Source of the DNA: Streptomyces sp. CA-210063
GTDB lineage: Bacteria; Actinomycetota; Actinomycetes; Streptomycetales; Streptomycetaceae
Direction of reading: 5' to 3'
Length of the DNA: 64,000 bases
Assembly: GCF_024612015.1 (NCBI RefSeq)
Contig: NZ_CP102512.1
Span: forward strand, 10,416,001 to 10,480,000
Shown: positions 3,476 to 24,914 of the stretch, piece by piece
How positions within the stretch are numbered: the stretch's first letter is position 1
Layout: the number at the start of each line of letters is the position of its first letter
Position numbers and translations under genes: made by a program
The notes under the pieces: model-generated
The model's input: only the letters and a program-made list of their open reading frames with translations
Database searches by the model: none
What the model was told of the DNA's origin: nothing

Positions 3476-4279
3476 TCAGGCGCGCACCGCGTGGAAGAAG
3501 TGCGTCGGCTGCTGTACGGCGACGCTCTCGTAGACCTCGGCGCAGACCGCCGTGCCCGGCCGCTCGAAGACACCGGCCGGGGGCTCCGCGACCTTGATGA
3601 CCGAGCGGCCGGCCTCCAGGAGCCGTGCGGCCATCGCGAAGTCACCGACCAGCGCTGATCCGGGCGCCACATGCCGGTGGCGGCAGATCATCACCTGCTC
3701 GCGGGCGAGGTCGGCGAGCAGGCTGCCGGCGCCCACCAACTCCCCGTAGTAGTCCTGCGGGTTGATCATCAGGGCGTGGCCGGTGCCGCCCTGCTGCTCT
3801 ATCTCGTTGAAGGCGGCGAGCACTCCGGCGGCGTAGGAGCCGGTGTACGGCAGCGTGGCCACATCCGGGTGGTCCACGACATCCAGGGTCAGGGCGCGGT
3901 TCTCCGCCGTGCCGAGGCGGACCATGAGCCGGTGGTCGATGAACTGGGCCAGCGCGTCGGGTTGTCCGACGAGCGCCTCGGGGATCTGTACCCAGGCGGT
4001 GATCGGCCGCACTCCATAGGTGGCCGCCTCGAAGCGGTACGCGCTCTCCCGCAGTCCGCCCGAGGCCCTGGGCGCCGCGGGTCGGGTCTCGAACCACGAC
4101 TGGACGGTCTCCGTCGTGACGCGCTGCTTCTTGAACAGATTGCGGGCGGTCAGCCGCGGCCGGTCCTTCCCGGCCTGGAAGGAGTCGGTGATGGTGAAGT
4201 CGAACTGGACCGCGGCCTTGTCCGGGTCCTCGGCAAAGGCCTGGGCGAACTGCTCGCCGCAGGAGGCGGTGGTCGTCAT
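3476..4279 (-). CDS. HK97-fold encapsulin shell protein (natural-product, family-3-like)
   Basis: A 267-residue protein that reads as an HK97 major-capsid-type fold in order. E-loop region: about residues 61-95, ending YGVRPITAWVQIP. Spine helix: LAQFIDHRLMVRLGTAENR (about 111-129). A-domain strand: GHALMINPQDYYGEL (about 167-181). C-terminal P-domain return: GSALVGDFAMAARLLE (about 207-222), then CAEVYESVAVQQPTHFFHAV. No portal, terminase, protease or tail genes are nearby, so a self-assembling encapsulin is favoured over a prophage capsid. From family knowledge, HK97 proteins embedded in actinobacterial NRPS/PKS clusters are called family 3 or natural-product encapsulins; they form shells that enclose cargo enzymes. 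It is the last gene of the leftward biosynthetic operon. Start: ATG 4279 with AAGGA about 11 nt upstream; an in-frame ATG at 4369, overlapping the sulfotransferase stop, would add 30 Pro/Thr-rich residues. Confidence 0.8.
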   Translation of the reverse strand: MTTTASCGEQFAQAFAEDPDKAAVQFDFTITDSFQAGKDRPRLTARNLFKKQRVTTETVQSWFETRPAAPRASGGLRESAYRFEAATYGVRPITAWVQIPEALVGQPDALAQFIDHRLMVRLGTAENRALTLDVVDHPDVATLPYTGSYAAGVLAAFNEIEQQGGTGHALMINPQDYYGELVGAGSLLADLAREQVMICRHRHVAPGSALVGDFAMAARLLEAGRSVIKVAEPPAGVFERPGTAVCAEVYESVAVQQPTHFFHAVRA

Positions 4280-4358
4280 CAGAACGTACGTCCTTGGGAT
4301 CGGCGTGGGCGTTGGCATGGGAACCGGCGGTGACGTCGTGCTCGGCCGGGAGAGCTGA

Positions 4359-5102
4359 TTAGAGCGCATGTTCGACGAGGCGCTCGTAGTACGGGAGATG
4401 GTGCTCGTAGAAGCCGCGCAGCCGTTCGTCGTTGTCGACGGTGACCCTGTACTCCTTCTCCGGAGCGTGGAACCCCGAGCTGGCGATGGCGTCGAGGTGC
4501 CAGCGCCGGTTCTGCCGCCACTCGGAGCGCTCTCCGGGCCGCCAGTTCAGCGCCCCGGGGAGGAACGGCAGGCCGACCCGCTCGCAGTACGCCGAGACGA
4601 CGGCCTCGGGGTCGGCGAGCAGCCGCTCCGCCGTGACGACCACCGGGCGCCGGCCGGTGATCTTCCAGGCCAGCTCGAAGAGGGCGTACTGGTGCTCGTA
4701 ACCGATCTCGTGGCACGCCAGTTCGGGTTTGACCGCGTGGTGCGAGGCGATGGCGCGGGCCGGATGGCGGACGATGAAGGTGTGCTCGAAGCCGTCGATC
4801 TGTTCCGGACGGTCGAAGAGATGCTGGTAGTGGTATTCGAGGGTGTCCTTGAAGAACACGGGCCGGCGGGCGCCGAGCCGCGCGAGGTGGGCGAGCAGTT
4901 CACCGGGGGAGCGCAGCGTCGCCGTACCGCCGTCCAGGTCCGGGACGGACACCTCGCCGTGGTCGGTGAGCAGCACCAGCGGTTCGTGTACGACGGTGAG
5001 GTCCCCGCGCTCGATCATCATGCGGAGGAAGGCGGTGGAGACCGCTCTCGGGTGCGCCCACATCGCGATCACGGTCGGGCGGGGCGCCGGGGCCCGGCTC
5101 AC
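4359..5102 (-). CDS. PAPS-dependent sulfotransferase
   Basis: A 247-residue sulfotransferase, expected to move a sulfonate from PAPS onto a hydroxyl or amine of a small molecule. The 5'-phosphosulfate loop is WAHPRAVSTAFLRMM near the N-terminus and the 3'-phosphate site is FIVRHPARAIASHH. FKDTLEYHY precedes the latter and carries plausible catalytic residues. Start: GTG 5102, overlapping the upstream aldo/keto reductase stop by 4 nt (ATGTGA), so translation is probably coupled. The frame is open much further upstream but that sequence is a shadow of the reductase gene. It lies between the reductase and the encapsulin gene, suggesting a late tailoring step. Confidence 0.85.
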   Translation of the reverse strand: MSRAPAPRPTVIAMWAHPRAVSTAFLRMMIERGDLTVVHEPLVLLTDHGEVSVPDLDGGTATLRSPGELLAHLARLGARRPVFFKDTLEYHYQHLFDRPEQIDGFEHTFIVRHPARAIASHHAVKPELACHEIGYEHQYALFELAWKITGRRPVVVTAERLLADPEAVVSAYCERVGLPFLPGALNWRPGERSEWRQNRRWHLDAIASSGFHAPEKEYRVTVDNDERLRGFYEHHLPYYERLVEHAL

Positions 5103-6082
5103 ATCGACCACTGCGTCGGCTGCCGGTCCCAGCGGTGCTCGCGCAGCTCCGCCAGCAGCGCCGGGTCGAGCGGGGGAGCACCGGAGACGGCCAGATTGGC
5201 GCGTACGTGCTCGGGTTTGCGCATGCCCGGGATGACCGTGCTCACGGCGGGGTGGTGCAGGATGAAGCGGAGCGAGAGCTCGGGCAGGGTGACGCCCTCG
5301 GGGAGGATTTTTTTGAGGAGCTCGCAGCGCTCGACGGTCGGAGCGAGGTTCTCCGGGCCGAAGTAGACGGCGCGCCAGTCCTCTTCGGGGAACGTCGTGT
5401 CCCGGGTGAGCCGACCGGTGAGGCCGCCCTCGTCGAAGGGGACGCGGGCGATGATGCCGATGTCGTCCCGCAGCGCCCGCTCGAACAGTTCGTCCTCCGG
5501 GGCCTGGTCGAAGATGTTGTAGATGACCTGGATGACATCGACGAGCCCGGTGTCGATCGCGCGCAGGCAGTTGGCAGGCTCCCAGCGGTTCACGCTGATG
5601 CCGAAGCCCTCGATCACGCCCTCCGCCTTCAGGTCGGAGATCACCCGCTGCCACCGCTCGTCGGCGCTCCAACGGTCCTCCCAGACGTGGAACTGCAGCA
5701 GGTCGATACGGTCCGTCCCGAGGTTCTCCAGGCTGCGGTGGACGTATTCCCGGATGTGGCCGGGCGGGAAGACGTCGTCCAGGGTGTCCTGCGGGCCGGG
5801 CGGCCACTCACGGTTGAGCGGCGGCACCTTCGTGGCGACGTGGAGGCGCCGGTCCGGGTGCCGGCGCAGCAGGGCGCCGAGCAGTTGCTCGCTCACGCCC
5901 CGGCCGTAGATCCACGCCGTGTCGAAGAAGGTGCAGCCCTGCTCGACCGCCAGGTCCAGACAGTCGGGTGCCGTGTCGTAGTCCCAGCCGGTGAAGCCTC
6001 CGGGGCCGCCGCCGATGCCCCACATGCCGTAGCCGATCTCGCTGACCCGCCAGCCGAGCCGGCCCATGGTGCGATGGTGCAT
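5099..6082 (-). CDS. Aldo/keto reductase
   Basis: A 327-residue NAD(P)H-dependent aldo/keto reductase with the complete tetrad: Asp and Tyr in TFFDTAWIYGRG, Lys in HVATKVPP, His in DLLQFHVWED. C-terminal cofactor-binding segments include STVIPGMRKPEHV. Start ATG 6082 has AGAGGA 7 nt upstream. It begins 14 nt after the A-T-reductase NRPS stop and overlaps the sulfotransferase start. The natural inference is that it reduces the aldehyde released by the NRPS reductase domain to an alcohol, giving a hydroxyl that the next-encoded sulfotransferase could use. That order is inferred, not shown. Confidence 0.88.
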   Translation of the reverse strand: MHHRTMGRLGWRVSEIGYGMWGIGGGPGGFTGWDYDTAPDCLDLAVEQGCTFFDTAWIYGRGVSEQLLGALLRRHPDRRLHVATKVPPLNREWPPGPQDTLDDVFPPGHIREYVHRSLENLGTDRIDLLQFHVWEDRWSADERWQRVISDLKAEGVIEGFGISVNRWEPANCLRAIDTGLVDVIQVIYNIFDQAPEDELFERALRDDIGIIARVPFDEGGLTGRLTRDTTFPEEDWRAVYFGPENLAPTVERCELLKKILPEGVTLPELSLRFILHHPAVSTVIPGMRKPEHVRANLAVSGAPPLDPALLAELREHRWDRQPTQWSM

Positions 6083-6096
6083 GTCGTCCTCTCGTT

Positions 6097-9000
6097 TCAG
6101 TGAGTGAGGGTGGTGCGGTAGGCGGCCAGGGCCGCTTCGAGCGGCGGTTCCCGCAAGCCGTGCCGGGCATCGAGCGCCGTACAGGAGTCGCGGGTGAACA
6201 GACCGGGGTTGTCGGTCAGCAGCCGCCGGAAGTCCGGTGTGCCGTCGGGCCCGGACGCGGGCAGCATGGTCAGTACGGCGGCCAGCACGGCCGCGGCGGA
6301 GCCCTCGTCCTCGTCGGCGGCGGCCCGCAGTGCCGCCATGAACTCCTCGGGCGGCACGGACCGTCCGCCCTCCGCGAGGCCGATCGCGGCGAAGTCCACG
6401 CTGCCGTCCCGGAACACATGGTGGACGGCACCCTCGGCGGGCTCCGCGAGCCCGGCCACCAGCCGCGCTGCCGTCTCGTCCACGGGCGTGTAGTCCGACC
6501 GCATCGGCACATCGGGCCGCAGACCCAGCCGGAGGAACGCCGACAGCAGCAGATGGGTCAATGCCTTCGGATTCGGTACGCCGTTGTCGGCGGCCGGCAT
6601 GATCTCGCCGAGCCGGTAGAGGGTCACCGGCGCGCCGAGCCGCCGGGCCGTGAGCACCAACCGCTCGGCGACCCACTTGGAACGGCTGTAGCCGCTCGCC
6701 GGCGTGACCGCCTCCGTGGGATCGAAGTCCTCGCCGAGGCGGCCCGTCGTGCGGACCGCCTGCCGGTCGAGCACGCCGAGGGTCGAGACGTGATGCAGTG
6801 CCTTGGCCCGCCCGGACAGCGCGAACCGCAGCACCTCCGCCGTGCCGGCGACATTGGCCGGGCGGTGGGCCCGGTAGTCGAGCAGGAAGTTGACGAGCGC
6901 CCCGATGTGCAGGACGGCATCGCACTGGGCGGCGTACGCCTCCCAGGCCTCCCGCGTCCAGCCGAACCGGGCCCGGGCGAGGTCGCCGCGCCGGGCGTCG
7001 AGCCGCCCGGCCAGGGCCTCGTCCCACAGGCCCTGCGCGCGCAAGGCTTCGATGAGCCGGTGCCTGGCATGCGCGTCGTCGTGGGCCCGCACGACGCACA
7101 CCACCCGCGCCTCGGTGGCCGTCAGCAGCCGATGGACGGCCCTGGCCCCTACGAAGCCGGTGGCCCCGGTGACCAGGACGGTGCGCGGCGGCACGGCCGG
7201 GCGGGTGCGCGCGGCCCGGCGGGCCAGGGCGGCCAGTTCCTCCGGCAGTTCGGCGTCACGCTCCATCAGCGAGGCGTCGTCCGCGGCGGAGGCGTCCGTG
7301 GCCCGGCCGTGCACGGCCGCGGCGAGCGCCACCGGTGTGCGGTGCGCGTAGAGGTCGGAGATGCCGACGCGCACGCCGAGCGTCTCCCGGATGCGCAGAG
7401 CGGCGGTCAGCGCGTTCAAGGAGTCCCCGCCGTGGTCGAGGAAGTCGTCCCGGACGCCGAAACCGGGCAGGTCGAGCACCGCACCCATGACCCCGGCGAT
7501 GCGCTCGACGCGGGTGAGCCCGGCATCGCCGCCAGGACCGCTCCCGGTGCCCGCGCCGGACTCGAGTTTCTCCTCCACGATCGTGTGCAGCGCCCCCAGG
7601 TCGACCTTGCCGTTGTCGGTGAGCGGCAGCGCCTGCAGGACGAAGCAGTGCTGCGGCACCTGGACGCGTGGCAGCACGGAGGCCAGGTGCTCGCGGAGCG
7701 CCACCGGGGTCGTTCCCTCCTCGGCCGCCGCGGCGACGACCAGACGGGTACGGCCGGACCGCCGCAGGGTCAGCGCCTTGGCCTGAACGACCCCGGGACA
7801 GGCCTCGGCGGTCGTCTCGATCTCGCCGAGCTCGATCCGTACGCCGTCGACCTGGGCCTGCCGGTCCCGGCGGCCGGCGAAGCGCAGGAGCCCCGAGTCG
7901 TCGAACCATCCGAGGTCGCCGGTGCGGTACAGCCGCTCGCCGGGGACGCCGGGGAAGAAGTTGGGGACGAACGCCTCGGCGGTGCGCTCCGGATCGCCGA
8001 GGTATCCGGCGCCCAGGCAGGCGCCCCCGATGAGGATCTCCCCGATGCCGTCGGTGTCCGCCCCGTCGATGACGGCGTAACAGTTGTCGATGGGCCGACC
8101 GAGCGGGATGCGGTCGCCCTCGGTGCCGTCGACGCGGTGGAAGACCATGCCGATGCTCGCCTCGGAGGGCCCGTACCCGTTGGTGATCCCGAGGCCCGGC
8201 ACCAGTTCCCTGAGCCGGTGCACGGCGTGCGGGATGATCTCTTCGCCGCCGACCACCAGATGGCGCAGCGAGGCGACCTCGGCGACGTGCGCCGGCTCGG
8301 CCTCCAGCAGGGCCACCAGCATGCCGAGGATCGCCGGCACGAAGTCGGTGACGGTCACTCCGTACCGGGCGATGGTCTCCACGGTCCGTTCCAGATCGAG
8401 GAACTCACCCTGCTCGGGGATGATCGTGCGGCCGCCCGTCGTCAGCGGCCACAGCAGTTGCCAGATCGCGGAGTCGAAGGTGTGGCGGCTGTTCTGCAGC
8501 ACCACCTCGTCGCCGGTGGCGCCGAAGTAGCGGGACATGAAACGGAACCGGTTGGTCAGCCCGCCGTGCAGATTGACGGCGCACTTGGGGACGCCGGTGG
8601 TGCCGGAGGTGAAGACGCCGTACACCGGATGCCCGGGAGCGGGCCGCCGCCCGGGGCGTTCGGTGCTCGGGGTGAGGGTCCGGTGGGAGACGACACGGGA
8701 CGGCCTGTCCGTGTGGACGAGGGGCCCGGTGGTCAGTAACAGCGGGGGATCGAGCACCTTCAGAACGCCGCGCAGCCGCTCCTCCGGCCAGGCCGGGTCG
8801 CAGGGCACGAACACCGCACCCAGCTTCATCAAGGCGACCATGCACAGCGGGAGTTCCACACTGTTGCCGATCACCAGCGGAACGAAGTCGCCGTCGCGCA
8901 CGCCGGCCGCCGTCAGTTCCGCGGCGAGCCCGTTGGCGAGCGCGTCGAACTCCGCGTAGGTCAGGGTCGTCTCGGTCTCACCCCGGTGGACGAGGGCAGT

Positions 9001-9105
9001 ACGGCCAGGGGTGCGGTCGGCCTGCTCCTCGATGAGGGTCGCCACCGGACGGTACGGTCCGTGGTCGACCTCCGCGCCGGCGACCTGCCAGTTCGTTTCC
9101 GACAT
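6097..9105 (-). CDS. NRPS module A-PCP-terminal reductase
   Basis: A 1002-residue stand-alone NRPS. Adenylation domain at about residues 15-520: A3 VFTSGTTGVPKCAV, A4/A5 HTFDSAIWQL and NGYGPSEAS, A7 YRTGDLG, A10 LTDNGKVDL. Carrier domain near 555-600: LDHGGDSLNAL, Ser for phosphopantetheine. NADPH-dependent thioester reductase at about 635-1002: TGATGFVGARAVHRLL, catalytic SGYSRSKWVAERL Tyr-Lys. It should load one amino acid and release the chain as an aldehyde or alcohol. It lacks a condensation domain. Hand-read specificity residues are roughly D-S-W-D-V-G-G-I-G-K, which I cannot match to a substrate; D235 is present, as for alpha-amino acids. SD GGAGG precedes ATG 9105. Confidence 0.9.
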   Translation of the reverse strand: MSETNWQVAGAEVDHGPYRPVATLIEEQADRTPGRTALVHRGETETTLTYAEFDALANGLAAELTAAGVRDGDFVPLVIGNSVELPLCMVALMKLGAVFVPCDPAWPEERLRGVLKVLDPPLLLTTGPLVHTDRPSRVVSHRTLTPSTERPGRRPAPGHPVYGVFTSGTTGVPKCAVNLHGGLTNRFRFMSRYFGATGDEVVLQNSRHTFDSAIWQLLWPLTTGGRTIIPEQGEFLDLERTVETIARYGVTVTDFVPAILGMLVALLEAEPAHVAEVASLRHLVVGGEEIIPHAVHRLRELVPGLGITNGYGPSEASIGMVFHRVDGTEGDRIPLGRPIDNCYAVIDGADTDGIGEILIGGACLGAGYLGDPERTAEAFVPNFFPGVPGERLYRTGDLGWFDDSGLLRFAGRRDRQAQVDGVRIELGEIETTAEACPGVVQAKALTLRRSGRTRLVVAAAAEEGTTPVALREHLASVLPRVQVPQHCFVLQALPLTDNGKVDLGALHTIVEEKLESGAGTGSGPGGDAGLTRVERIAGVMGAVLDLPGFGVRDDFLDHGGDSLNALTAALRIRETLGVRVGISDLYAHRTPVALAAAVHGRATDASAADDASLMERDAELPEELAALARRAARTRPAVPPRTVLVTGATGFVGARAVHRLLTATEARVVCVVRAHDDAHARHRLIEALRAQGLWDEALAGRLDARRGDLARARFGWTREAWEAYAAQCDAVLHIGALVNFLLDYRAHRPANVAGTAEVLRFALSGRAKALHHVSTLGVLDRQAVRTTGRLGEDFDPTEAVTPASGYSRSKWVAERLVLTARRLGAPVTLYRLGEIMPAADNGVPNPKALTHLLLSAFLRLGLRPDVPMRSDYTPVDETAARLVAGLAEPAEGAVHHVFRDGSVDFAAIGLAEGGRSVPPEEFMAALRAAADEDEGSAAAVLAAVLTMLPASGPDGTPDFRRLLTDNPGLFTRDSCTALDARHGLREPPLEAALAAYRTTLTH

Positions 9106-9162
9106 ATCCTCCGAGCTCTCTGCTGATGCTGATGGGGGATGGGGGCGCCAGAGGGGTGGCTG

Positions 9163-10380
9163 TCACGACCGGCCGGCGCGGGCAGGGGTGACGCCCGCGA
9201 CGGCCGTGGTGAGCCCGGGTGGTGGCTCGTTCCCCGCGATGAGCGCGGCGAGCAGCGCGCCCGCCGCGGGGGCTGTCTGGATCCCGTAGCCGCCGAGACC
9301 GGCGAGCCAGCAGAAGCCGGCCGCGTCCGGATCGGGGCCGATGACGGGGGTGTCGTCGGGCGTCGAGGTGCGCAGCCCGGCCCAGGCGCGGCGGATGTGC
9401 CGTACCGGCAGCTCCACCACCGCCCGGAACCGGTCGAGGGCCAGCGCCACGTCGCGGTCGTCGGGCCGTACGTCACCGGGCGGGGCAGGGGTGGCATCGG
9501 CGGGAGAGAGAAGCAGGCCGCCTGACTCCGGGCGGGCGTAGAACGTGTCCGCCACGTCGGAGATCATCGGCCAGTGCGCGACGTCGGCCGCCGACCCGCC
9601 CGGCAGGCCCTCGTTCCCCGGGTGCCGCGAGTGGTCGCGGCCGCCTGTGTCGCCGGAGCGGCCCTCCGGCGCCCGGTCCGCCGGCACGGTGGCGAGCGCC
9701 GCCGTACGCCGGTACGACACCAGGCCCCTGGGGGCGACGCCGGCCGACCCCGCCACCTGATCGGCCCAGGCGCCCGCCGCGTCGACCACCACCGGCGCGG
9801 CGAACTCCCCGGCCGACGTGGCCGCGTACCACTGTCCGTGACGACGGGTCAGAGCGAGCACCCGGGCACCGGTCACGACACTCCCGCCCGCTGCCCGCAC
9901 GCCGCGCAGAAAGCCCTGGAGGACGGCGTCCGTGTCGATGTCGCGGGCACCCGGCTTGTACAGCGCGCGGTCGAAGGCGCCGGGCCGCAGTGCCGGGCAC
10001 AGGGCGAGCGCCTGGTCGCGGTCCACCTCGACCACCGGCTGCGGGGCGCTCGCGCCCGAGGCCTTCGCGGCATCGAACTCCCGGCCGGTGTCCGGGGTCC
10101 CGAGGGCGAGGACGCCACGCGGCCGCAGCAGCTCCGCGACGGGGGAGAATCCCGCCGGGGGTCTCTCGAAGAAGGCGCGGGAAGCCACAGTCAGCGCCCG
10201 TACCACGGTGTTCCCGTAGTACTCGGAGAAGAGCGCGGCCGACCGCCCCGTCGCGTGCGTGCCCGGAGTCCGCTCGGCCTCCAGCAGCGTCACCCGGGCG
10301 CCGGACCGGCCGAGGAAGTACCCGGCCGCGGCGCCCGCGATGCCACCCCCGACGACCAGCACGTCCGACAAGCCGCTCAC
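9163..10380 (-). CDS. FAD-dependent oxidoreductase (DAO / glycine-sarcosine oxidase type)
   Basis: A 405-residue flavoprotein. The N-terminal dinucleotide-binding motif is VLVVGGGIAGAAAGYFLGRSG, followed by the acidic end of the second strand, LLEAERT. The C-terminal FAD-contact region is GLGGYGIQTAPAAGALLA. The fold is the D-amino-acid oxidase/glycine oxidase class, so oxidation of a C-N bond of an amino acid or imine is the likely chemistry. Start: GTG 10380, overlapping the exporter stop by 4 nt. Residues about 245-280 are a Gly/Ser-rich insert (DRAPEGRSGDTGGRDHSRHP) not typical of the core fold. It belongs to the same leftward operon as the NRPS and encapsulin. Confidence 0.85.
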   Translation of the reverse strand: MSGLSDVLVVGGGIAGAAAGYFLGRSGARVTLLEAERTPGTHATGRSAALFSEYYGNTVVRALTVASRAFFERPPAGFSPVAELLRPRGVLALGTPDTGREFDAAKASGASAPQPVVEVDRDQALALCPALRPGAFDRALYKPGARDIDTDAVLQGFLRGVRAAGGSVVTGARVLALTRRHGQWYAATSAGEFAAPVVVDAAGAWADQVAGSAGVAPRGLVSYRRTAALATVPADRAPEGRSGDTGGRDHSRHPGNEGLPGGSAADVAHWPMISDVADTFYARPESGGLLLSPADATPAPPGDVRPDDRDVALALDRFRAVVELPVRHIRRAWAGLRTSTPDDTPVIGPDPDAAGFCWLAGLGGYGIQTAPAAGALLAALIAGNEPPPGLTTAVAGVTPARAGRS

Positions 10381-11816
10381 CGTCCCTTCCTGGGCAGGGT
10401 CACGGCCGCCACGCACAGCGCCAGCAGGGTGAGGCCGGCCGCCACGGCGAACCCCCGGGCCACCCCCGTGGACAGTCCCGCCCCGGCCTCGCCGGACACG
10501 GCGTCCCCGGACGACCACGCGACCGCGCCGAGCACCGCAAGCCCGGTCGCGCCGCCGATCTGCCGGGCCATGCTGAGCAGCCCGGAAGCCGCTCCCGAGT
10601 CCTCGTCGGCGACCTTGGAGAGCGCGGCCAGGGTCAGCGGCACGCCGGTGACGCCCAGACCCGCGTACGTCAGCACGGTAGGCACCAGCATCCCGGTGGT
10701 GTAGCCGCCCGACTCGCCGATCCTCGCCAGCCACAGGATCCCGGCGGTGGCCGTCAGCAGGCCGCCGCAGACCAGCGCGCGGGTGCCGAAGAGCGCCAGG
10801 AGCGGGGAGCCGGCCTTGGCCCCGATGACGAGCAGGCAGGTCAGCGGGAGGTAGACGAGCGCGGTGCGCAGCGGGCTGTAGTCCCAGACCTGCTGCAGGA
10901 AGAGGGTGAGGAAGAAGAAGATGCCGAACATGGCCGTGCCGATCAGCGCCGTCACGGTGTACGTGCCGAAACGGGTGCGGTCGGTGAACAGCCACAGCGG
11001 AACCAGCGGTTGGGCGCTGCGCCGCTCGATCACCACGAACGCGGGCAGCAGCAGGGCCGCCGCACCCAGCGCGGCCAGCACCAGGGCGGAGGACCAGTTG
11101 CCGCCCCCCGAGGCGCCGTCGATCAGCCCGTAGCACAGGAGCAGCGCGGCGAGGGTGCCGGTCACCGCGCCCAGGACGTCGAACGCGCCGCGTGTGCGGG
11201 GCGTTTCGCGCAGCACCCCGGCGCCGACGGCGAGGATCGCCACGCCGAGCGGGACGTTGACGAACATCACCCAGCGCCAGGACAGGTACACCGTGATCAG
11301 CCCGCCCGCCAGCAGCCCCACGCCGCCGCCCGCCGTGGCCACGGCCGTGTACCAGCCCACGGCCCGGTTGCGCCGCGGCCCCTCCGGAAAGGTCACCGCG
11401 ATCAGCGACAGCGCGGCGGGCGAGGCCGCGGCGGCGCCCACTCCCTGCGCCGTGCGGCAGACGGTCAGCAGCCACGCCTCGGTGGCGAACCCGCCGAACA
11501 GCGACGCGGCGGTGAAGACCGCCACGCCGGTCATGAACAGACGCCGCCTGCCGAGGATGTCCCCCGCCCGGCCGCCCAGCATCAGCAGCCCGCCGAAGGC
11601 GATCGAGTACGAGGCCACGACCCATTCCAGGTCCGAGCCGTCCAGGCGCAGCGACTCCTGGATGTCTGGCAGCGCCACATTGACGATGGTCGCGTCCAGC
11701 AGGAACATCAGCTGCGCCGCCGAGATCACCGCGAGCGCGACCGACCGCCGCCGACTGCCGTTGTCCTCCTGCGGGGACGTGGAGGTGTCGCCGGCGGTCC
11801 GCTCGGACGCCGTCAT
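10377..11816 (-). CDS. MFS drug exporter, DHA2 family (14 TMS)
   Basis: A 479-residue proton-driven exporter of the DHA2/EmrB-QacA type. Motifs: the N-terminal signature LLDATIVNVALPDIQ, motif A GGRAGDILGRRRLF, and WRWVMFVNVPLGV in the middle. Hydrophobic segments fit 14 passes. It overlaps the AMP-ligase stop by 4 nt (ATGA) and the FAD-enzyme start by 4 nt, so it is translated as part of the cluster operon. Likely role: export of, or self-protection from, the cluster product. Confidence 0.88.
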   Translation of the reverse strand: MTASERTAGDTSTSPQEDNGSRRRSVALAVISAAQLMFLLDATIVNVALPDIQESLRLDGSDLEWVVASYSIAFGGLLMLGGRAGDILGRRRLFMTGVAVFTAASLFGGFATEAWLLTVCRTAQGVGAAAASPAALSLIAVTFPEGPRRNRAVGWYTAVATAGGGVGLLAGGLITVYLSWRWVMFVNVPLGVAILAVGAGVLRETPRTRGAFDVLGAVTGTLAALLLCYGLIDGASGGGNWSSALVLAALGAAALLLPAFVVIERRSAQPLVPLWLFTDRTRFGTYTVTALIGTAMFGIFFFLTLFLQQVWDYSPLRTALVYLPLTCLLVIGAKAGSPLLALFGTRALVCGGLLTATAGILWLARIGESGGYTTGMLVPTVLTYAGLGVTGVPLTLAALSKVADEDSGAASGLLSMARQIGGATGLAVLGAVAWSSGDAVSGEAGAGLSTGVARGFAVAAGLTLLALCVAAVTLPRKGR

Positions 11817-13465
11817 CGGCGGGCGGCGTATTCGATCTCGAGACGTTCGCGCAGGGGGTGCCGCAGCACCTTGCCCAGCGAGTTCTTGGGCAGTTCCCAG
11901 ACGAACTGGACCCGGTCGGGCCAGAGCACCTTCGCCATCCGCTCGTCCGCGAGATGGCCGTGCAGCGTTTCCAGGGTGGGCGGCTCGCCCTCCGGCACGA
12001 CGACGGCACAGACCAACTCGGTGCCGGGGACGTGCGGGTCCGGGTAGCCGACGAGCGCGACCTCCTTGACGGCCGGGTGCCGGGTCAGGACGGACTCGAC
12101 CTCCAGGGTGGAGACCTTCTGGCCGCTGCCGCGGGTGATCTGGTCGACGCTGCGGCCGACGATCCGGATGCCGCCCCGGCCGTCGTCACGGGCCAGGTCG
12201 CTGGTGTCGAACCAGCCGTCCTCGTCGAGACAGGCCTCGTAGACCTCGCGCTGGCCGAGATACCCCAGACACTGCGAAGCCCCGCGCACCAACAGCCGGC
12301 CGGCGTCGCGGCCCGCCTCGACGGCGATGCGCAGCTCCATCCAGGGCTCCGCGCGGCCGTCGCTGCGGCCCGCCCAGCCCTCCGGGTCGTCGTCCCGGGT
12401 CACGGTGACGGCCCCGTTCTCGGTCATGCCCCACAGGGCGCGCACCGGGATGTCGAAGACCTCGCGCACCTGGGCGATCAACTGCGGCTGGATGGGGGCG
12501 GAGCCGGACACGATCTGCGCCACGCTGGAGGTGTCGCGCGGCTCCTTGCGCTGGGCGTCCAGCAGGTCGACGAGGTACGCCGGAGAGGCGTAGGCCCAGG
12601 TGACACGGTGGGCGGCGACGATATCGAGAAGCAGTTCCATGTCCCGGTTGGCCTCCTGCATCACACAGGTGGCGTGCAGGAGCAGCGGCATGTAGCAGGC
12701 GTAGGTCAGCCCGGCCATGTGCGTGGCGAAGTTGGGGATGGAGATGACGTCGTCCCCGTCGAGCCGGTGCGGCACGGAGACCGCGAGCACGGCCGCGTGC
12801 AGGGTGTTCTGGCTGTGCACGACGCCCTTCATCCGGCCGGTGGTGCCGGAGGTGTAGAGCAGCAGTGCCGGATCGTCGGGGCCCAACTGCCGCGCCGTAT
12901 CGACGTCGTGCCGCTCCTCCCACGGCGTACGGACGAAGAACTCGTCGAAGTCGAGGGCGCCGGTGGCGGCGGCGTCGCCCACCACGACCCGGTGGGCGAG
13001 GGACGCGGGGGCCGCCTCGGCCAGCCGGGCGCCGTAGTCGATGTCGTTGAAGCCGTCGACCGTGACGCAGATCCGCGCGGCGCTCTCCTGAAGCACCAGG
13101 GCCAGTTCACGGACGTCCAGCGCGGGGATCACCGGGCAGGCGACGGCCCCCACCCGGTGGCAGGCCAGGTACAGGGGTGTCAGGATCCAGCGGTTCGGCA
13201 GGTAGAAGGCGACCACGTCACCGCGCACGACGCCGAGTTCGGCGAGCGCGGCGGCGAACCGCTCGACCAGAACGGCCAGTTCGGCATAGCTCACCACCTT
13301 GGTGAGCTCGCGCCCCTCGTACGCGATGACGGCGGGATGCTCCGCTTTGGTGCGGGCTGCTTCGGCCAGGTCGGCCAGAAACGTTTCCTCTCGCCACCAG
13401 CCGGCCGCCCGGTATTTCGCGGCCGTCTCGGGTTCCGGAATAACCAACGTGTCCCATTTACCCAC
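11813..13465 (-). CDS. Acyl-CoA synthetase-like AMP-dependent ligase
   Basis: A 550-residue stand-alone ANL-superfamily enzyme without a carrier domain. ATP-binding loop LLLYTSGTTGRMKGVVHS, WGMTENGAV (A5), DTSDLARDD (A7), VGRSVDQITRGSGQKV (A8) and catalytic Lys in LPKNSLGKVLR. The overall look is of medium-chain fatty-acyl or cyclohexanecarboxyl-type CoA ligases, so it probably activates a carboxylic acid starter for CoA or a carrier protein. Start: GTG 13465 is preferred, with a G-rich SD-like stretch upstream and a conserved-looking N-terminus; an in-frame GTG at 13510 lacks a ribosome site. First gene of the leftward operon that ends with the encapsulin. Confidence 0.82.
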   Translation of the reverse strand: MGKWDTLVIPEPETAAKYRAAGWWREETFLADLAEAARTKAEHPAVIAYEGRELTKVVSYAELAVLVERFAAALAELGVVRGDVVAFYLPNRWILTPLYLACHRVGAVACPVIPALDVRELALVLQESAARICVTVDGFNDIDYGARLAEAAPASLAHRVVVGDAAATGALDFDEFFVRTPWEERHDVDTARQLGPDDPALLLYTSGTTGRMKGVVHSQNTLHAAVLAVSVPHRLDGDDVISIPNFATHMAGLTYACYMPLLLHATCVMQEANRDMELLLDIVAAHRVTWAYASPAYLVDLLDAQRKEPRDTSSVAQIVSGSAPIQPQLIAQVREVFDIPVRALWGMTENGAVTVTRDDDPEGWAGRSDGRAEPWMELRIAVEAGRDAGRLLVRGASQCLGYLGQREVYEACLDEDGWFDTSDLARDDGRGGIRIVGRSVDQITRGSGQKVSTLEVESVLTRHPAVKEVALVGYPDPHVPGTELVCAVVVPEGEPPTLETLHGHLADERMAKVLWPDRVQFVWELPKNSLGKVLRHPLRERLEIEYAARR

Positions 13466-13757
13466 TGAAGCGCCCCCGCTCTTCGTACTTCCAGCTTGAT
13501 ACTCGAGCACGAATCCAGTGGCCGAGCCTAGAGGATGAAGGAAGAGCGCGGTAGGCGGAACGAGGAAATCCGATTCTGTTTATCAGACGCACGGTGCCCT
13601 CACTTTTCGTTCAAAAGCGTGTGCAGTGTCCCCAATTGAGGTGATCGGCGTTCAATGCGCGTAAGCCATAAACCACTTGACAGACAGAGGCGGCGAGAGT
13701 GAGGCTGCGACGGCGTCCGCTCTGTCCACGGCAATGCGCGAGAGCTCTGGAGGCACG
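13466..13757. promoter_or_regulatory. Divergent intergenic region between the two arms of cluster 1
   Basis: About 290 bp separating the leftward AMP-ligase operon from the rightward ATP-grasp gene; both must be promoted from here. It is the least GC-rich stretch nearby and holds an imperfect inverted repeat, CTTTT-n5-AAAAG, near 13603-13618, and a TTGACA (13677-13682) that could be a rightward -35 box. No convincing matching -10 and no gene of its own seen. Confidence 0.45.
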
Positions 13758-14645
13758 GTGAAAGTAGGCCTGCTCGGCTGGGACTATTCGGGAATCGATC
13801 CCGACGGCATAAGCCTGGTGGAGTACGGCCGGGAGCGCGGGCATGAAATGTCGTTCTTCACACTCGAGGAGATCGCCTATCGCCCCGACCCGTCCGGCGT
13901 GGCACTCACCCTCGGTGGGGAGCCCGCGGAGGCCTTCGACGCCGTCATCAACCGCTCCAAGCTGTACGGCGACGACTGGCAGGACCGCGTCGAACGGCTG
14001 ACCATGCTCAGCAACGTGCCCGGCCTGCGGCTCTTCGACCCGGCTGACGTCTGGGTGACGGGATACAGCAAGTTCCTGATGGCCCAGCGGCTGGCCGCCG
14101 CCGGACTGCCCGTGCCGCCCATCCGCTCGGCGACCTCGCTCGCGGACGTCGAGGAGGCCTGCCAGGAGTGGGGCGAGGTCATCCTCAAGCCCTCCTTCGG
14201 CTATCGCGGCACCGACGTGGAACGCGTCGCCGACTTCGCGGCCGACAAGGCCGTCGCCGAGGAGTTGCTGTCCCGCTATCCGACCCTGGTCTGCCAGCGC
14301 TTCTATCCGACGTCGGGCGGCGAGTACCGGATCACGGTCGCGGGGGAGGCCACCCCGATCAACATGCTCAAGCTTCCGGCGCCGGGCTCCTGGCGCTGCA
14401 AGACGATGGAGGGCGCGACCTTCGAGCGGTTCGAGGCTCCCGACGAACTCGTCGAGCTGTCGCTGCGCGCCACCCGGGCCATGGGCATCACGCTGGCCGG
14501 CCTCGACATCCTTCCCGCCCCGGACGGCTATGTGATCCTCGAAGTGAATCCGGTCCCCGGCTACCTCTCCATGCTGGGCAGGGAGCAGCACCGCGAGGTG
14601 CTGGGCGGTGTCTTCGACTGGGTCGAGGCGAAGACCTCCGCCTAG
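13758..14645 (+). CDS. RimK/LysX-like ATP-grasp ligase
   Basis: A 295-residue ATP-grasp enzyme, expected to join a carboxylate to an amine through an acyl-phosphate. The ATP-binding lysine and loop are in VILKPSFGYRGTDVERV. The metal/ATP site is GLDILPAPDGYVILEVNPVP, with the usual Glu-x-Asn. Start: GTG 13758 with GGAGG 4 nt upstream, giving the expected N-terminus VKVGLLGWDY; ATG 13734 and TTG 13677 in frame lack a ribosome site. Followed 48 nt later by an aldo/keto reductase in the same direction. In a cluster with only one visible condensation domain, it is a good candidate for forming an amide bond. RimK/LysX relatives also work on amino-group carrier proteins, but I found no such small carrier gene here. 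Confidence 0.82.
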   Translation: MKVGLLGWDYSGIDPDGISLVEYGRERGHEMSFFTLEEIAYRPDPSGVALTLGGEPAEAFDAVINRSKLYGDDWQDRVERLTMLSNVPGLRLFDPADVWVTGYSKFLMAQRLAAAGLPVPPIRSATSLADVEEACQEWGEVILKPSFGYRGTDVERVADFAADKAVAEELLSRYPTLVCQRFYPTSGGEYRITVAGEATPINMLKLPAPGSWRCKTMEGATFERFEAPDELVELSLRATRAMGITLAGLDILPAPDGYVILEVNPVPGYLSMLGREQHREVLGGVFDWVEAKTSA

Positions 14646-14693: not shown

Positions 14694-15791
14694 ATGCGCT
14701 ACATGACCTTCGGCCGGAACACCGGGCTGCGTGTGTCGGAGTTCGCACTCGGTACGGCCAACTTCGGCGCGGGCGTCGGGGCACATCCCGAGGCCGCCGG
14801 ACTGATGTGGGCCAGACGGGGTGACGGCGCCGGGGGCGAGGACGCCCGCAAGGTCTTCGACCGGTTCGCGGAGGCGGGCGGCACCTTCATCGACACCGCC
14901 GACTGCTACCAGTTCGGCGAGTCGGAGAAGCTGCTGGGCGAGTTCCTCGCCGCCGACCGCGACCACTTCGTCCTGTCGTCGAAGTTCACCAACAGCGACT
15001 CCTCCCGTCCGGGCATCTCCAACACCGGCAACAGCCGCAAGAACATGATCCGGTCCGTCGAGTCCAGCCTGAAACGCCTGAGGACCGATCACATCGACCT
15101 GTACTGGGCCCACTTCCCCGACACGCTCACCCCCGCCGAGGAGATCCTGACCGCCGTCGACCAGCTCGTGCGCAGCGGCAAGATCCTCTACGCCGGTCTC
15201 TCCAACTTCCCCGCCTGGCGCGTCTCCCGGGCCGTGACGATCGCGGAACTCCGCGGCTGGGCCCCCGTCATCGGCATCCAGACGGAGTACAACCTGGTCA
15301 ACCGCACCGGCGAACGCGAACTGCTGCCCATGGCGGAGTCGCTCGGCCTCGGTGCGGCCCTGTGGTCACCGCTGGGCGGCGGACTCCTCACCGGCAAGTA
15401 CCGGCGTACGGAGGCGGGCTGGGTCAGCGACGAGAACCGCCGCCACCCGCGCAATGACACCGATCAGATCGAGGCGGTCGTCACCACCGTCCTCGCCGTG
15501 GCCGAGGAGACCGGACTCTCGGCGCTCCAGGTGGCGCTGTCCTGGCTGCGCGGCCGCGCGGCGCGGTCGACCACCGCGTTCGTGCCGGTCATCGGCCCGC
15601 GCAACGAGGCCCAGCTCGAGGAGTACCTCACGTCCCTCGATGTCACGCTCACGGAAGAGCAACTGGCACGGCTGGACGCGGTGAGCGCCGTCGAGCTGGG
15701 CAGCCCGCACGAGATCGGCCGTCTCGTACGGGACTCCCTGATCGGCGGGGATCCCGACCGGATGGTCGCGCCGGTCGTGCCCGTGGCCTGA
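14694..15791 (+). CDS. Aldo/keto reductase (second in cluster 1)
   Basis: A 365-residue reductase with an intact tetrad: TFIDTADCYQFG (Asp, Tyr), LSSKFT (Lys) and IDLYWAHFPD (His). C-terminal cofactor-binding FVPVIGPRNEAQLEEYL. It resembles the YajO/PdxI-like AKR branch more than the first reductase of the cluster does. Start ATG 14694 has AGGAG 5 nt upstream. Co-directional with the ATP-grasp gene and ends 10 bp from the convergent GNAT-like gene. Substrate unknown; presumably a carbonyl intermediate of the cluster. Confidence 0.87.
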   Translation: MRYMTFGRNTGLRVSEFALGTANFGAGVGAHPEAAGLMWARRGDGAGGEDARKVFDRFAEAGGTFIDTADCYQFGESEKLLGEFLAADRDHFVLSSKFTNSDSSRPGISNTGNSRKNMIRSVESSLKRLRTDHIDLYWAHFPDTLTPAEEILTAVDQLVRSGKILYAGLSNFPAWRVSRAVTIAELRGWAPVIGIQTEYNLVNRTGERELLPMAESLGLGAALWSPLGGGLLTGKYRRTEAGWVSDENRRHPRNDTDQIEAVVTTVLAVAEETGLSALQVALSWLRGRAARSTTAFVPVIGPRNEAQLEEYLTSLDVTLTEEQLARLDAVSAVELGSPHEIGRLVRDSLIGGDPDRMVAPVVPVA

Positions 15792-15801
15792 GGCGCCGGG
15801 G

Positions 15802-16728
15802 TCAGTCCGTCCACGCCGGATGGTGATGGACGGTCGTCGGCTCCAGGAACGGCGCGGTGTACAGCTGCGCCTGAGCCGCCTCCATCGGTTTCTCGCTGAT
15901 CAGATGCGCCGCGAGCCGACGCCCGGCGTACCCGAGGATGAGGGTCGGATCGCTGAGGGCCTTCAGACGCAGGACGAGATCGGCCTCGTCGGCGGCCTGG
16001 GGATCGGCGCACTCGTGTGAGGGAACCGCGCGGAACCCCAGCCCCGTCTTGAATCGGAGCAGTCCCGGCTGGGTCAGATGGCCCATCAGATTCGGCTCGT
16101 TTCCCAGCGTCGCCCGGGTATACCCCCTGGCCCGGGCCGCCCGCAGCATGGAGAAGTAGAGGACGCGGGGAAGACTGGACCGCCGGTAGGCCGCGCTCAC
16201 CGCGGAGAACCGGAGCACCAGCGTGTTCACCGCCGGGCATTCGAGCGCGAGGCAGCCGCCGACCAGCTCCTCCCCGTCGTACGCGAAGACCCCGAAGAAC
16301 TTCCGCGGCCCGTGCAGGACGGCGTCCCGGTGGTCGAGCGCGAACGGGACGCCGAACCGCATCTCGGCCACCCGCTCCTGGTAGAGCGCCAGGAACCGGT
16401 CGAGCGTGGCCGGTGACACCGGGTCCTCGATCGTCTCGCGCACACCGGCCGCGGCCGCCTGGCGTTGAGCGCGCCGGACGGTCTGGCGCGCCGAGCGGTC
16501 GAGGCCCGCCAGGAAGCCGTCCTCGTCCGCGCCCAGCTCGGCCACCCAGGTCAGGAGGGACGGCTTGCGGATGAACCCCCGGCGCGCGAGTTCGTCCCAG
16601 GTCCCGGCCGGGGGATTTTGCAGTCTGACGACGTCGATGTACTGATCCGTTCTGGCCCAGGGTTCCTCGGCCAGTTCCGCGGCTTCGATCAGGGCGAGTG
16701 CCAGGCCGTAGCGGTCCACGATCTCCAT
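15802..16728 (-). CDS. GNAT/FemAB-like acyltransferase
   Basis: A 308-residue protein whose C-terminal half has a GNAT-type core: FFGVFAYDGEELVGGCLALE, then LRFSAVSAAYRR and SMLRAARARGYTRATLGNEP, ending GLLRFKTGLGFRA. This layout, with a basic helical stretch LDRSARQTVRRAQRQ before it, is typical of FemAB/BioF2-like transferases that use acyl-CoA or aminoacyl-tRNA. It starts 12 nt after its upstream neighbour and shares its orientation, so probably one operon. It could add an acyl or aminoacyl group to a cluster intermediate. No clear SD. Family assignment moderate; donor unknown. Confidence 0.68.
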   Translation of the reverse strand: MEIVDRYGLALALIEAAELAEEPWARTDQYIDVVRLQNPPAGTWDELARRGFIRKPSLLTWVAELGADEDGFLAGLDRSARQTVRRAQRQAAAAGVRETIEDPVSPATLDRFLALYQERVAEMRFGVPFALDHRDAVLHGPRKFFGVFAYDGEELVGGCLALECPAVNTLVLRFSAVSAAYRRSSLPRVLYFSMLRAARARGYTRATLGNEPNLMGHLTQPGLLRFKTGLGFRAVPSHECADPQAADEADLVLRLKALSDPTLILGYAGRRLAAHLISEKPMEAAQAQLYTAPFLEPTTVHHHPAWTD

Positions 16729-16740: not shown

Positions 16741-17676
<936 letters not shown>

Positions 17677-18795
17677 CTAGACGCCCAGTCGTTCTTTCAC
17701 GTCGGCGAAGAACGGGAGGTAGCGGTAGTCGCGGGCCACGGGATCGTAATGCGTGTACCGGTTGGTGAAATCCAGCAGCCGCTGACGGACGGCGGCGACC
17801 GGCTCCTCGTGGATCTTGCGCTCGATGTCCTGGATCGCGCCGAGGAACCGCGCCAGGACCACCGGGATGTCCGGGCTCAGCTCGATCACGCCGTCGGCCA
17901 CCCGGATGCCGTCGTGCTCGCTCAGGTACCCGAAGAGCAGCTGAGAGGCGACGGCGTCGTAGTTGGGCCGTGGGATGCCCTCGACGGCGTAGCGCAGCAG
18001 CCGCTCGGCGAGGATGTACTCGTACGCGGTCCGCGCCTGCTCACGGGGGAGCTTGGCGTCGTTCAGCAGGACCAGCATGGCGGAGACGTCCACGCGCAGC
18101 TCTTCGAGTCCTGCCAAGGGTTTGTACTTCTTGGCCGACAGGAATTCGGGAATCGGCATGTCGCCCTGCCGGTGGTGGTATTCGTGCAGTCTCACCCACC
18201 AGGAAGAGGCCTGCTCCACTTGCTTGTCCGTCGCTCCCTGAATGAGCGGGAAGCTTCCCTCGGCCATCACCGCGTCGATCATCTTCCGGGTGATCCGGTT
18301 GTGCCGCTCGACGAACTTGTCGATGAAGTAGAAGATGAGATCGTCCGGATCCTGAATTCCGTCGAAGTGGTTCTCCGGGAAGAGCGCCACCACCGCACGG
18401 GACGCGAACCCGTCGGACTGCCCCGTGATGGTGACCGGAGCGGTGTTGCTGGCGTACCGCTCGGCGAGGTGCGGATCGGTGGGCAGGACCTCGTAGGTGA
18501 GGTAGTCGAGAGACAGGGACGGAAAGTACGAGGCGTCGAACAACGAGAAGATGTGGTTGTCCCGACGGCTGTTGATGTGGTACTTCGTGGCCCGCAGCCT
18601 GGATCCGGGAGTGAAGGTGCGGAGGTCCTCGAGAAAGGCCTGGACTATCGGCTGCCGCCGTAAGTGGTCGGACCCTTCGATCCGGCGGGCCAACTCCTTG
18701 AGGGTCTCCGCCTCACGGAACGAGGAACGTCGGCCGAGCTCTCCCCGTAATTCGTTGACTTCCGCGAACACCGAGCCCATGTCGATGTCGATCAA
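17677..18795 (-). CDS. Uncharacterised protein (DUF6421-like?), cluster 1
   Basis: A roughly 372-residue cytoplasmic protein without a signal or membrane segment. The most distinctive stretch is WWVRLHEYHHRQGDMPIPEF, followed by GLEELRVDVSAMLVL; the paired histidines and the Glu in ELRVD look like metal ligands. It reminds me of DUF6421-type actinobacterial proteins, unverified. Its position between the heme-oxygenase-like protein and the type II thioesterase suggests a biosynthetic or precursor-supply role. Start uncertain: GGGGAGGGG lies 6 nt before TTG 18795; GTG 18825 and ATG 18780 are in frame. Confidence 0.55.
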   Translation of the reverse strand: MIDIDMGSVFAEVNELRGELGRRSSFREAETLKELARRIEGSDHLRRQPIVQAFLEDLRTFTPGSRLRATKYHINSRRDNHIFSLFDASYFPSLSLDYLTYEVLPTDPHLAERYASNTAPVTITGQSDGFASRAVVALFPENHFDGIQDPDDLIFYFIDKFVERHNRITRKMIDAVMAEGSFPLIQGATDKQVEQASSWWVRLHEYHHRQGDMPIPEFLSAKKYKPLAGLEELRVDVSAMLVLLNDAKLPREQARTAYEYILAERLLRYAVEGIPRPNYDAVASQLLFGYLSEHDGIRVADGVIELSPDIPVVLARFLGAIQDIERKIHEEPVAAVRQRLLDFTNRYTHYDPVARDYRYLPFFADVKERLGV

Positions 18796-18888
18796 CAAAT
18801 GCCCCTCCCCGTCAACTCCGGGCACGCTATCACGCCTTGATGTTCAGATCTTTGCGTTTTCCAGCATTGCTTTGACCCATCTCTCCAT

Positions 18889-19626
18889 TCAGCGGGAACC
18901 GGGTCGCGGGTCCGAGAGAGTTTTACGCAGGAGGGAGTAGGGCGGTTCGGCGATGAGGTAGAAATGGTTCCCGGAAACGCCGACCTCCTGGACGGGCGCC
19001 GTGCTCAACTCGCTCCACGGGCGGCGGTCCGCGTCGTCGTCCTGGTCGCCGACGATGGTGGTCACGGGACACGTGAGCAACGGCTCGGGCGCCATGTCGT
19101 AGTCGTGGAACATGCGACCGTCGGCGATCAGATAGGGCAGGACCACCTCCTGGAAGATCGGGTCGGCCGCCATCTCCGCGTCGGTGCCGCCCATCCTGAC
19201 CAGGTCCTCGAGTAGCTGGTCGGGGTCGTCCTCGGCGACCAGGCCGGTGGGCAGCGGGGCGTCACGGGAGCCCGAAGCGAACAGGTGCTCGATGTCGATG
19301 CCCCGGCGCTGCAGCGCGCGTGCCGTCTCCAGGGCTATGGGAGCGCCCAGGCTGTGTCCGAAGAAGGCGAGGGGGAGATCCGCCAGCGGTTCGAGCGCGT
19401 CGGCGATGTCGGCGGCGAGCCGGACGAGGTCGTGCGGAGGTTCCTCGTCGAACCGGTCGGCGCGCCCCGGGTACTGGACGGCGTGGACCTCCACCTCGGT
19501 CAGAGACTGACCCCAGGAACGGTAGAAGCCGGCCGACCCGCCGGCGTGCGGAAAGCACACCAGACGCACCCGCGCCTCGGGCCGGGCGGTGTCGCGCGCC
19601 AGCCAGCGCGAGGCGTGCGCGGTCAC
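18889..19626 (-). CDS. Type II thioesterase
   Basis: A 245-residue alpha/beta hydrolase of the editing thioesterase class that removes mis-primed or stalled acyl groups from carrier domains. Motifs: LVCFPHAGGSAGFYRSW at the N-terminus, nucleophile AFFGHSLGAPIALE, and the catalytic histidine in GVSGNHFYLI; the acid is in VGDQDDDADRR. Start: GTG 19626 overlapping the A-PCP NRPS stop by 4 nt, so the two are translationally coupled. Confidence 0.92.
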   Translation of the reverse strand: MTAHASRWLARDTARPEARVRLVCFPHAGGSAGFYRSWGQSLTEVEVHAVQYPGRADRFDEEPPHDLVRLAADIADALEPLADLPLAFFGHSLGAPIALETARALQRRGIDIEHLFASGSRDAPLPTGLVAEDDPDQLLEDLVRMGGTDAEMAADPIFQEVVLPYLIADGRMFHDYDMAPEPLLTCPVTTIVGDQDDDADRRPWSELSTAPVQEVGVSGNHFYLIAEPPYSLLRKTLSDPRPGSR

Positions 19627-21560: not shown

Positions 21561-21597
21561 GAGAAAAGCACCCCGTTTACCGCGTCGTGGTGGTGTG

Positions 21598-21626
21598 ATC
21601 CTAGGAGGGCGGATTGATTTACGCAA
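21598..21626 (-). promoter_or_regulatory. Promoter for the A-PCP / thioesterase operon
   Basis: On the minus strand, -35 TTGCGT (21626-21621), a 17-bp spacer and -10 TAGGAT (21603-21598). The spacing and the -10 fit vegetative sigma-70-type promoters of streptomycetes. Predicted start of transcription is about 31 nt upstream of ATG 21560. Confidence 0.6.
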
Positions 21627-21737
21627 TGGATCAGTGCGAGCGGTCCGTCCCATGCGCTCCCAACGGAAGCGGAATTAAGTAATCCGTACCGCGAGGGCAC
21701 GATAGAACCCTATTTGCCGACTGAAGAGGGCTGCTGA

Positions 21738-24728: not shown

Positions 24729-24802
24729 CACAACGTCCCCCATCATGCCGTTGGAAATCGGATATTCCATCTCATGCTGCGCTGATGCCGTGTCGCCCCG
24801 TG

Positions 24803-24830: not shown

Positions 24831-24832
24831 CC

Positions 24833-24848: not shown

Positions 24849-24914
24849 AGGTTGGCAGGAAACGATCAGACATGGCAACGTCATACGCTCCTGATTGCGA
24901 AGGGAGTCGACGAG

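Follow-up and report, generated by a model that had tools for sequence, protein, structure and literature searches.

What is a capsid-fold gene doing at the end of a row of natural-product biosynthesis genes? The question is raised by a 64,000-nucleotide stretch of the genome of Streptomyces sp. CA-210063 (the window; bases 10416001–10480000 of a 10.86-Mb single-contig genome), whose genes have their closest relatives in S. europaeiscabiei and S. caniscabiei. Here seven co-directional minus-strand genes run from position 13465 down to 3476 and encode, in order, a ligase, an MFS exporter, an FAD-dependent oxidoreductase, a single-module nonribosomal peptide synthetase (NRPS) of adenylation, carrier and thioester reductase domains (ATR), an aldo/keto reductase (AKR), a sulfotransferase (ST) and a capsid-fold shell protein. 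An earlier note, made from the DNA alone, had described this row as an NRPS operon with an encapsulin as its last gene; all seven genes are present over that span, and Pfam assigns the six that precede the shell. Genes were called with a simple open reading frame (ORF) script rather than a trained gene finder. Taken together, gene content and gene order favour, with a probability of roughly 0.55, a Family 3 encapsulin shell that is tied to the reduction and sulfation step of a working biosynthetic block.

The shell protein and its gene row

The shell gene (3476–4279, minus strand) encodes a protein of 267 aa that matches the curated NCBIfam model NF041188 (encap_f3) with 320.4 bits (E = 7e-96) at a cut-off of 180, and structure prediction gives a confident HK97 fold across almost the whole chain. 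Homologues at E ≤ 1e-3 number 126, and among the matches listed 116 of 120 show 49–92% identity. It is near certain that the product is a Family 3 encapsulin; the predicted structure confirms the HK97 fold that the earlier note had proposed, and model and fold together bear out its naming of Family 3. The protein itself has no Pfam or PHROG family match. PF05065, precomputed for many relatives of 50–60% identity, gives no match for the shell up to an E of 0.1, and PF04454 (Linocin_M18, Family 1) is absent from its Pfam matches and has no match in the whole genome.

A capsid fold could also mark a prophage remnant lying beside the cluster by chance, and the top structural matches of the shell model are the phage HK97 and D3 proheads. 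The surroundings speak against this. As the earlier note had it, there are no phage genes nearby: Pfam finds none among 27 ORFs (the 7 in the row and 20 flanking), no portal, terminase or protease gene occurs among the flanking ORFs scanned, and PHROGs, applied to 10 of the 27, returns three matches that are not phage-structural (two AKRs in a family of unknown function and an ATP-grasp protein in a RimK-type family). The shell has no PHROG match and meets the Family 3 model, and its fixed cluster position at 35 loci in several families is decisive; the probability of a chance remnant is close to nil. Better placed, although still improbable, is a capsid-fold protein that builds no closed shell and serves as a scaffold or has lost its function. 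In favour of such a protein, the PDB chains reached with the shell's sequence profile are phage capsids. Set against it are the confident fold over almost the full chain, 27 invariant columns over 63 shell sequences and conservation across long distances.

A scan of genome contigs yielded 53 shell loci, of which gene calling and clustering place 35 in clade A and 18 in clade B. Clade A, that of the window (50–93% shell identity to the window shell), extends over the actinobacterial genera Streptomyces, Nonomuraea, Catellatospora, Micromonospora, Allonocardiopsis, Actinoallomurus and Actinomadura and over the betaproteobacteria Trinickia, Paracidovorax and Ramlibacter. Its gene order ATR-AKR-ST-shell is invariant, and ST immediately precedes the shell at 35 of 35 loci. 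ORF calling finds ST at 35/35, AKR at 34/35 and ATR at 32/35 loci; by tblastn the counts are 35/35, 35/35 and 34/35, and at L027, where ATR is missing, the contig begins right before AKR. The counts include both L023 and L025, near-identical clusters with identical AKRs that occupy separate contigs of a single Nonomuraea genome, and also L033, a draft Streptomycetaceae record whose shell gene is split between two frames, which may be a sequencing error.

In the window, the block consists of the ATR (6097–9105; PF00501, PF00550 and PF07993, NAD_binding_4; above the TIGR01746 cut-off), the AKR (5099–6082; 327 aa, PF00248 at E = 8e-51, with a C-terminal tail ending in WSM) and the ST (4359–5102; 247 aa from a GTG overlapping the AKR stop, PF19798 Sulfotransfer_5 at E = 5e-17), all on the minus strand, followed by the shell. 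A ten-residue A-domain signature, located by motif and positioned by GrsA numbering, reads DSWD(V/I)G(G/A)IGK in 33 of 33 ATR rows. It was matched to no known code, hence no amino acid is named; the shared signature suggests that one building block is common to these clusters while the remainder varies. The sequences show ATR, AKR, ST and shell to be a single conserved row of genes, and its fixity across these 35 nearest shell loci is new here. An observation on L103 (G133) and L008 is that, in the genome of L008, the DAO-ATR-AKR-ST-shell part and the part with the ligase, ATP-grasp, GNAT, PolF and PolE genes (described below) seem to be separately located, with a second, partial oxidoreductase (DAO) gene.

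The translational overlap proposed earlier holds for three junctions, ligase/MFS, MFS/oxidoreductase and AKR/ST, each of 4 nt, but not for the shell, which begins 79 nt past the ST stop when its start is taken as 4279. This start is putative, in-frame ATGs being available at 4318 and 4369. Conservation begins at residue 38 of the longest possible form, and at four loci (L013, L021, L026 and L030) a stop closes the frame ahead of the called start, so the longest form is not common to the relatives.

Upstream of the block lie the FAD-dependent oxidoreductase (DAO, DAO/ThiO-like; 9163–10380, PF01266 at E = 2e-50), the MFS exporter (10377–11816, PF07690 at E = 9e-42) and the acyl-AMP/CoA ligase (LIG; 11813–13465, start at 13465 or 13510, PF00501 at E = 1e-68), all on the minus strand. 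DAO relatives occur near the shell at 31 of 35 clade A and 17 of 18 clade B loci, and three of the four clade A misses (L002, L032 and L035) are short upstream contigs. LIG and MFS are variable in clade A: they lie upstream in the Streptomyces type, and a different MFS gene lies 3' of the shell at 14 of 35 loci. The recurrence of MFS neighbours, in clusters that may yield electrophilic products, could mean that the shell is no reaction vessel and instead stores or shields a finished bioactive product for self-protection or delivery. We consider this unlikely, as the fixed clade A neighbours at -3, -2 and -1 are biosynthetic enzymes.

From their families, an A-T-R protein yields an amino aldehyde, an AKR the alcohol and an ST the sulfate ester; PolE and PolF, whose homologues lie farther along the cluster, give an azetidine or dehydro-isoleucine unit, an ATP-grasp ligase forms a peptide-like bond and an MFS protein exports. 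Most likely, the shell would enclose or organise the reductive release and sulfation. The steps that we infer are, in falling order of confidence, that the ATR would load one particular amino acid and release it reductively as an amino aldehyde; that the AKR would convert this to a 1,2-amino alcohol; that the ST would transfer sulfate to it from PAPS (3'-phosphoadenosine 5'-phosphosulfate); that the HK97-fold shell would self-assemble and hold ST and/or AKR, keeping a reactive aldehyde, the sulfate ester or a later product away from the cytoplasm; and that the MFS protein would export the product. In the Streptomyces form, the rest of the product would include an azetidine (or dehydro-isoleucine) unit made by PolE/PolF and joined by the ATP-grasp ligase. 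Andreas and Giessen (PMC8346489) had already proposed a sequestering role for Family 3 encapsulins, directed at reactive aldehydes or ketones and at hydroxyl products bearing sulfate.

Sulfotransferases beside shells of three clades

Clade B shells, 39–44% identical to the window shell and found in Micromonospora, Nonomuraea, Streptosporangium and others, lie in a different block: DegT-type aminotransferase, MFS, sulfotransferase, short-chain dehydrogenase/reductase (SDR), methyltransferase, shell, DAO and an Asp/Glu-racemase-like gene. Two shells that are 27–29% identical to the others, L116 (in genome G053) and L122 (in G743), form clade C and still exceed the NF041188 cut-off with 345 and 327 bits. 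By Pfam, one arm of L116 carries RimK/LysX-type, semialdehyde-dehydrogenase, split transketolase and ligase genes, and the divergent arm reads shell-ST-SDR-MFS-amino acid kinase/M20-APS kinase-PAPS_reduct protein (APS, adenosine 5'-phosphosulfate). The order at L122 is like that of L116, with a LysW-like carrier protein (PF21344); a PAPS_reduct protein and a GTPase are encoded past ST and SDR. Both clade C clusters contain genes of sulfate-activation type, in each case a PAPS_reduct-domain protein together with an APS kinase or a GTPase, whose role is presumed.

By tblastn, an ST of the A or B type lies near the shell at 56 of 57 loci across the three clades (35/35 in clade A and 17/18 in clade B, plus L116, L117, L118 and L122), a count that is new here and leaves out the Mesorhizobium and myxobacterial classes of Family 3. 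The sole miss, L052, sits on a contig cut 0.9 kb upstream; within this set of 57, every shell with sequence around it was accompanied by a sulfotransferase. The ST of the window belongs to Sulfotransfer_5, and those of three clade B/C examples scanned belong to Sulfotransfer_3, so that ST and shell did not simply descend together as a single pair of genes. A reductase that uses NAD(P)H, either AKR or SDR, also recurs beside shells across the three clades.

Clusters that lack a shell help to separate the two steps. Four genomes of one other Streptomycetaceae genus (L056–L059) carry an ATR and an AKR of 72–74% identity; neither a shell nor an ST of the A or B type lies close to them (neighbourhoods of 20 kb, or 4 kb for one of the genomes), and genome-wide no Family 3 shell exceeds the cut-off. 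The ATR signature in the two of these clusters examined is DSWDVGAIGK. These clusters argue that the aldehyde step alone needs no shell, so that a shell required for that step is weakened as an explanation by clusters with the same signature (two ATRs), and sulfation gains weight over the aldehyde step.

Several observations count against a link between shell and sulfation as well. Gene neighbourhood alone does not reveal shell contents, and the ST-shell pairing is not universal in Family 3: sulfotransferases are described as only "commonly found" in Family 3 clusters in parts of PMC8346489, and where the Mesorhizobium clusters are described there, SDRs and phosphoserine enzymes are listed and no sulfotransferase is named. 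In genome G743, an AKR (64% identity) and an ST (43%) stand beside genes of sulfate-activation type on an 18-kb contig that has no shell, the block reaching the contig end, which implies that an ST needs no shell. Draws of 121 and 394 genomes made independently of the shell, with thresholds that differ between draws, gave seven AKR orthologues, of which two are accompanied by ST and shell (G000 and G774), one by ST only (G743) and four by neither. A candidate cargo tag fared no better. The AKR C-terminal tail HRWDR-x-P-...-W-S-[M/Q/G] is carried by the window AKR (5099–5140) and by 34 of the 34 AKRs called in clade A. It is absent from the 20 next-best AKRs of the family sample (L060–L079; 43–49% identity, in genomes without a shell above cut-off), which end in R-x-[F/Y]-Y, and from five more distant ones (L080–L084) with endings of their own. 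As a targeting peptide, the tail is weakened: the four shell-less AKRs (L056–L059) and that of G743 keep it. No shell-specific targeting peptide was found, and the ends of ST, ATR and DAO, compared by eye, share no tag.

The AKR tail is real but not shell-specific. The AKR tree nests L056–L059, which share a long stem, within the shell-linked Streptomyces AKRs (support 98/95 for the 20-row set, 92/97 for the inner set). The last seven residues have a pLDDT of about 68 and no secondary structure in the AlphaFold model, and the last residue is partly dictated by the GTGA overlap with ST. In the G743 cluster (L120, contig C89), with no shell in view, an ATR-like gene is accompanied by argininosuccinate-synthase-like, AKR, ST and sulfate-activation-type genes. 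At L091 (G031), an ATR/AKR cluster of another genus, the next gene encodes a single-chain NRPS of 2332 aa with three AMP-binding stretches, a condensation domain, a thioesterase and a C-terminal MFS domain.

If the shell does serve sulfation, the sulfate may be a leaving group. A sulfated 1,2-amino alcohol could close to an aziridine (Wenker-type), with the shell holding the sulfation and ring-closing enzymes or the alkylating product. We regard this refinement of the reduction/sulfation reading as tentative and rather improbable. Reductive release followed by AKR and ST in clade A would yield exactly a 1,2-amino alcohol sulfate. Clade C combines ST and sulfate-activation-type genes with RimK/LysX-type, semialdehyde-dehydrogenase and split transketolase genes (by Pfam at L116, in like order at L122) and a LysW-like carrier (L122). 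In azinomycin biosynthesis, according to sections of PMC9570651, DADH is made via a kinase/reductase/transketolase/aminotransferase path and sulfated, and the neighbouring amine attacks the sulfate to give the aziridine. Chloromyxamide, described in PMC8346489, is the product of the one Family 3 cluster that has been studied; it contains 6-chloromethyl-5-methoxypipecolic acid, and this C7 unit could stem from an aziridine opened by chloride. Against ring closure, no aziridine-forming enzyme is recognised in the window, the azinomycin enzyme sequence not having been compared, and the sulfate may simply remain on the product, as is proposed in passages of PMC8346489.

The PolF/PolE half of the cluster

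The seven-gene row is half of a larger predicted cluster. Divergent from LIG and adjoining it, in relatives too, is a RimK-type ATP-grasp ligase gene (GRASP; 13677–14645, plus strand, start uncertain; PF08443 at E = 8e-12, rimK_fam under cut-off), followed by a second AKR (14694–15791, plus strand; PF00248 at E = 4e-64) with a relative of 74–95% identity in 9 of 14 shell genomes. Three minus-strand genes come next: a GNAT protein (15802–16728; PF13480, Acetyltransf_6, at E = 3e-11), a PolF-like protein (DUF6202; 16741–17619) that by homology would be an azetidine-forming di-iron enzyme (PDB SaPolF 9j27, E = 7e-128), and a PolE-like protein (DUF6421; 17677–18825) that would be an Fe/pterin L-Ile desaturase (PDB SnPolE 9j2e, E = 4e-170); a further PDB structure of a close homologue is 9j28. 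The term NRPS operon understates the cluster, whose fixed partners of the shell in clade A are ATR, AKR and ST. The earlier interpretation stands in part: the family and fold are right, its proposal that some of the pathway may take place within a protein compartment is reasonable, and it falls short in the size of the cluster.

A PolF homologue is present in 13 of 14 shell genomes versus 0 of 120 other Streptomycetaceae; the Fisher value of 3.5e-17 ignores relatedness, and the 14 were hand-picked from about 15 loci, among the 53, with the Streptomyces-type or a near layout. The only miss among the 14 is a Nonomuraea genome, and the 120 include G053, which has a clade C shell and no PolF. PolE homologues occur in 11 of 12 shell genomes. 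The two window proteins match the DUF6202 and DUF6421 families (PF19705, 474 bits; PF19985, 52 bits), and the PolE-like protein keeps a metal motif HExxH-X22-E at residue 214 that fits the HE/DXXHX(21-23)E of PolE. GNAT adjoins PolF in 9 of 9 regions examined, and the adjacency of PolF/PolE to the cluster rests on 8 of 9; the two were not seen within the 35 clade A loci because they lie past the 10-kb flank. By these patterns, the Streptomyces-type shell cluster, the only type with which PolE/PolF were seen, extends to PolF/PolE homologues, which is new here. At L104 (G132), GNAT-PolF-PolE occurs without GRASP or LIG in the stretch examined.

An NRPS/polyketide synthase (PKS) extension of the strain group, with TE, A-T, KS-AT-ACP, A-T-C and P450 parts by Pfam, lies at 18889–29131. 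As a core part of the cluster this arm is unsupported: just 2 of 12 shell genomes have KS-AT-ACP relatives at E ≤ 1e-200, although G121, a many-contig draft, may miss for that reason. KS-AT-ACP adjoins PolE in L102.

With a predicted azetidine, the ring-closure idea can be taken one step further. ST-bearing Family 3 shells might be compartments for sulfate-activated ring closure: the 1,2-amino alcohol made by ATR and AKR would be O-sulfated within the capsid-derived shell and closed to an aziridine, which in Streptomyces would then be joined to the azetidine, and the shell would shield the cell from the alkylating intermediate, a proposal that we hold slightly more doubtful than the leaving-group idea itself.

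Elsewhere in the window, a gene resembling that of RNA polymerase alpha (RpoA) lies at 35468–36496, in the chromosome arm, and a minus-strand ORF of 2717 aa at 55846–63999, which continues past the window and is adjoined by large ORFs, possibly belongs to another biosynthetic cluster.

Comparison with known systems

The closest known systems are the Family 3 encapsulins of Andreas and Giessen 2021 (PMC8346489), with which the locus shares the curated model, the HK97 fold, an actinobacterial biosynthetic cluster, a nearby sulfotransferase and the absence of phage genes among the ORFs scanned. The main text of that paper describes SDR-sulfotransferase pairs, NRPS/PKS genes and amino-group carrier proteins (AmCPs), whereas the window has an AKR as its oxidoreductase in place of an SDR. 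The terms aldo-keto, DUF6202, azetidine and aziridine do not occur in this main text, the supplement with the operon classes being outside the comparison. What Family 3 encapsulins contain and what they are for is left open in passages of the paper, in agreement with the earlier note's remark that cargo and purpose are essentially unknown. In the open-licence PubMed Central literature, it is the sole paper found with more than a passing mention of Family 3, PMC8229669 having one mention. To the question of purpose, the locus contributes a four-gene block movable as one piece, a pointer to the ST as the partner shared by three clades whose clusters differ, and natural shell-less controls with the same ATR signature and AKR and no ST, and it predicts an azetidine as a specific building block of the product.

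Other capsid-fold proteins are more distant. The HK97 gp5 and D3 prohead capsids are 16–22% identical to the shell, and the window ORF begins at the capsid domain. Family 1 and 2 encapsulins (M. xanthus EncA, the P. furiosus virus-like particle and the Family 2B proteins of S. lydicus and S. griseus) are 7–12% identical to it, and unlike in those families, no ferritin-like or peroxidase Pfam match occurs among the neighbours scanned. The window PolF and PolE homologues resemble the polyoxin biosynthesis enzymes described in parts of PMC12614342 in E-values and in the PolE metal motif; they sit in a shell/sulfotransferase cluster, and the main text of PMC12614342 makes no mention of an encapsulin. 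The shell thus belongs to a known encapsulin family, and what the genomic comparison adds is the conserved block, the recurrence of the ST and the predicted link to PolF/PolE.

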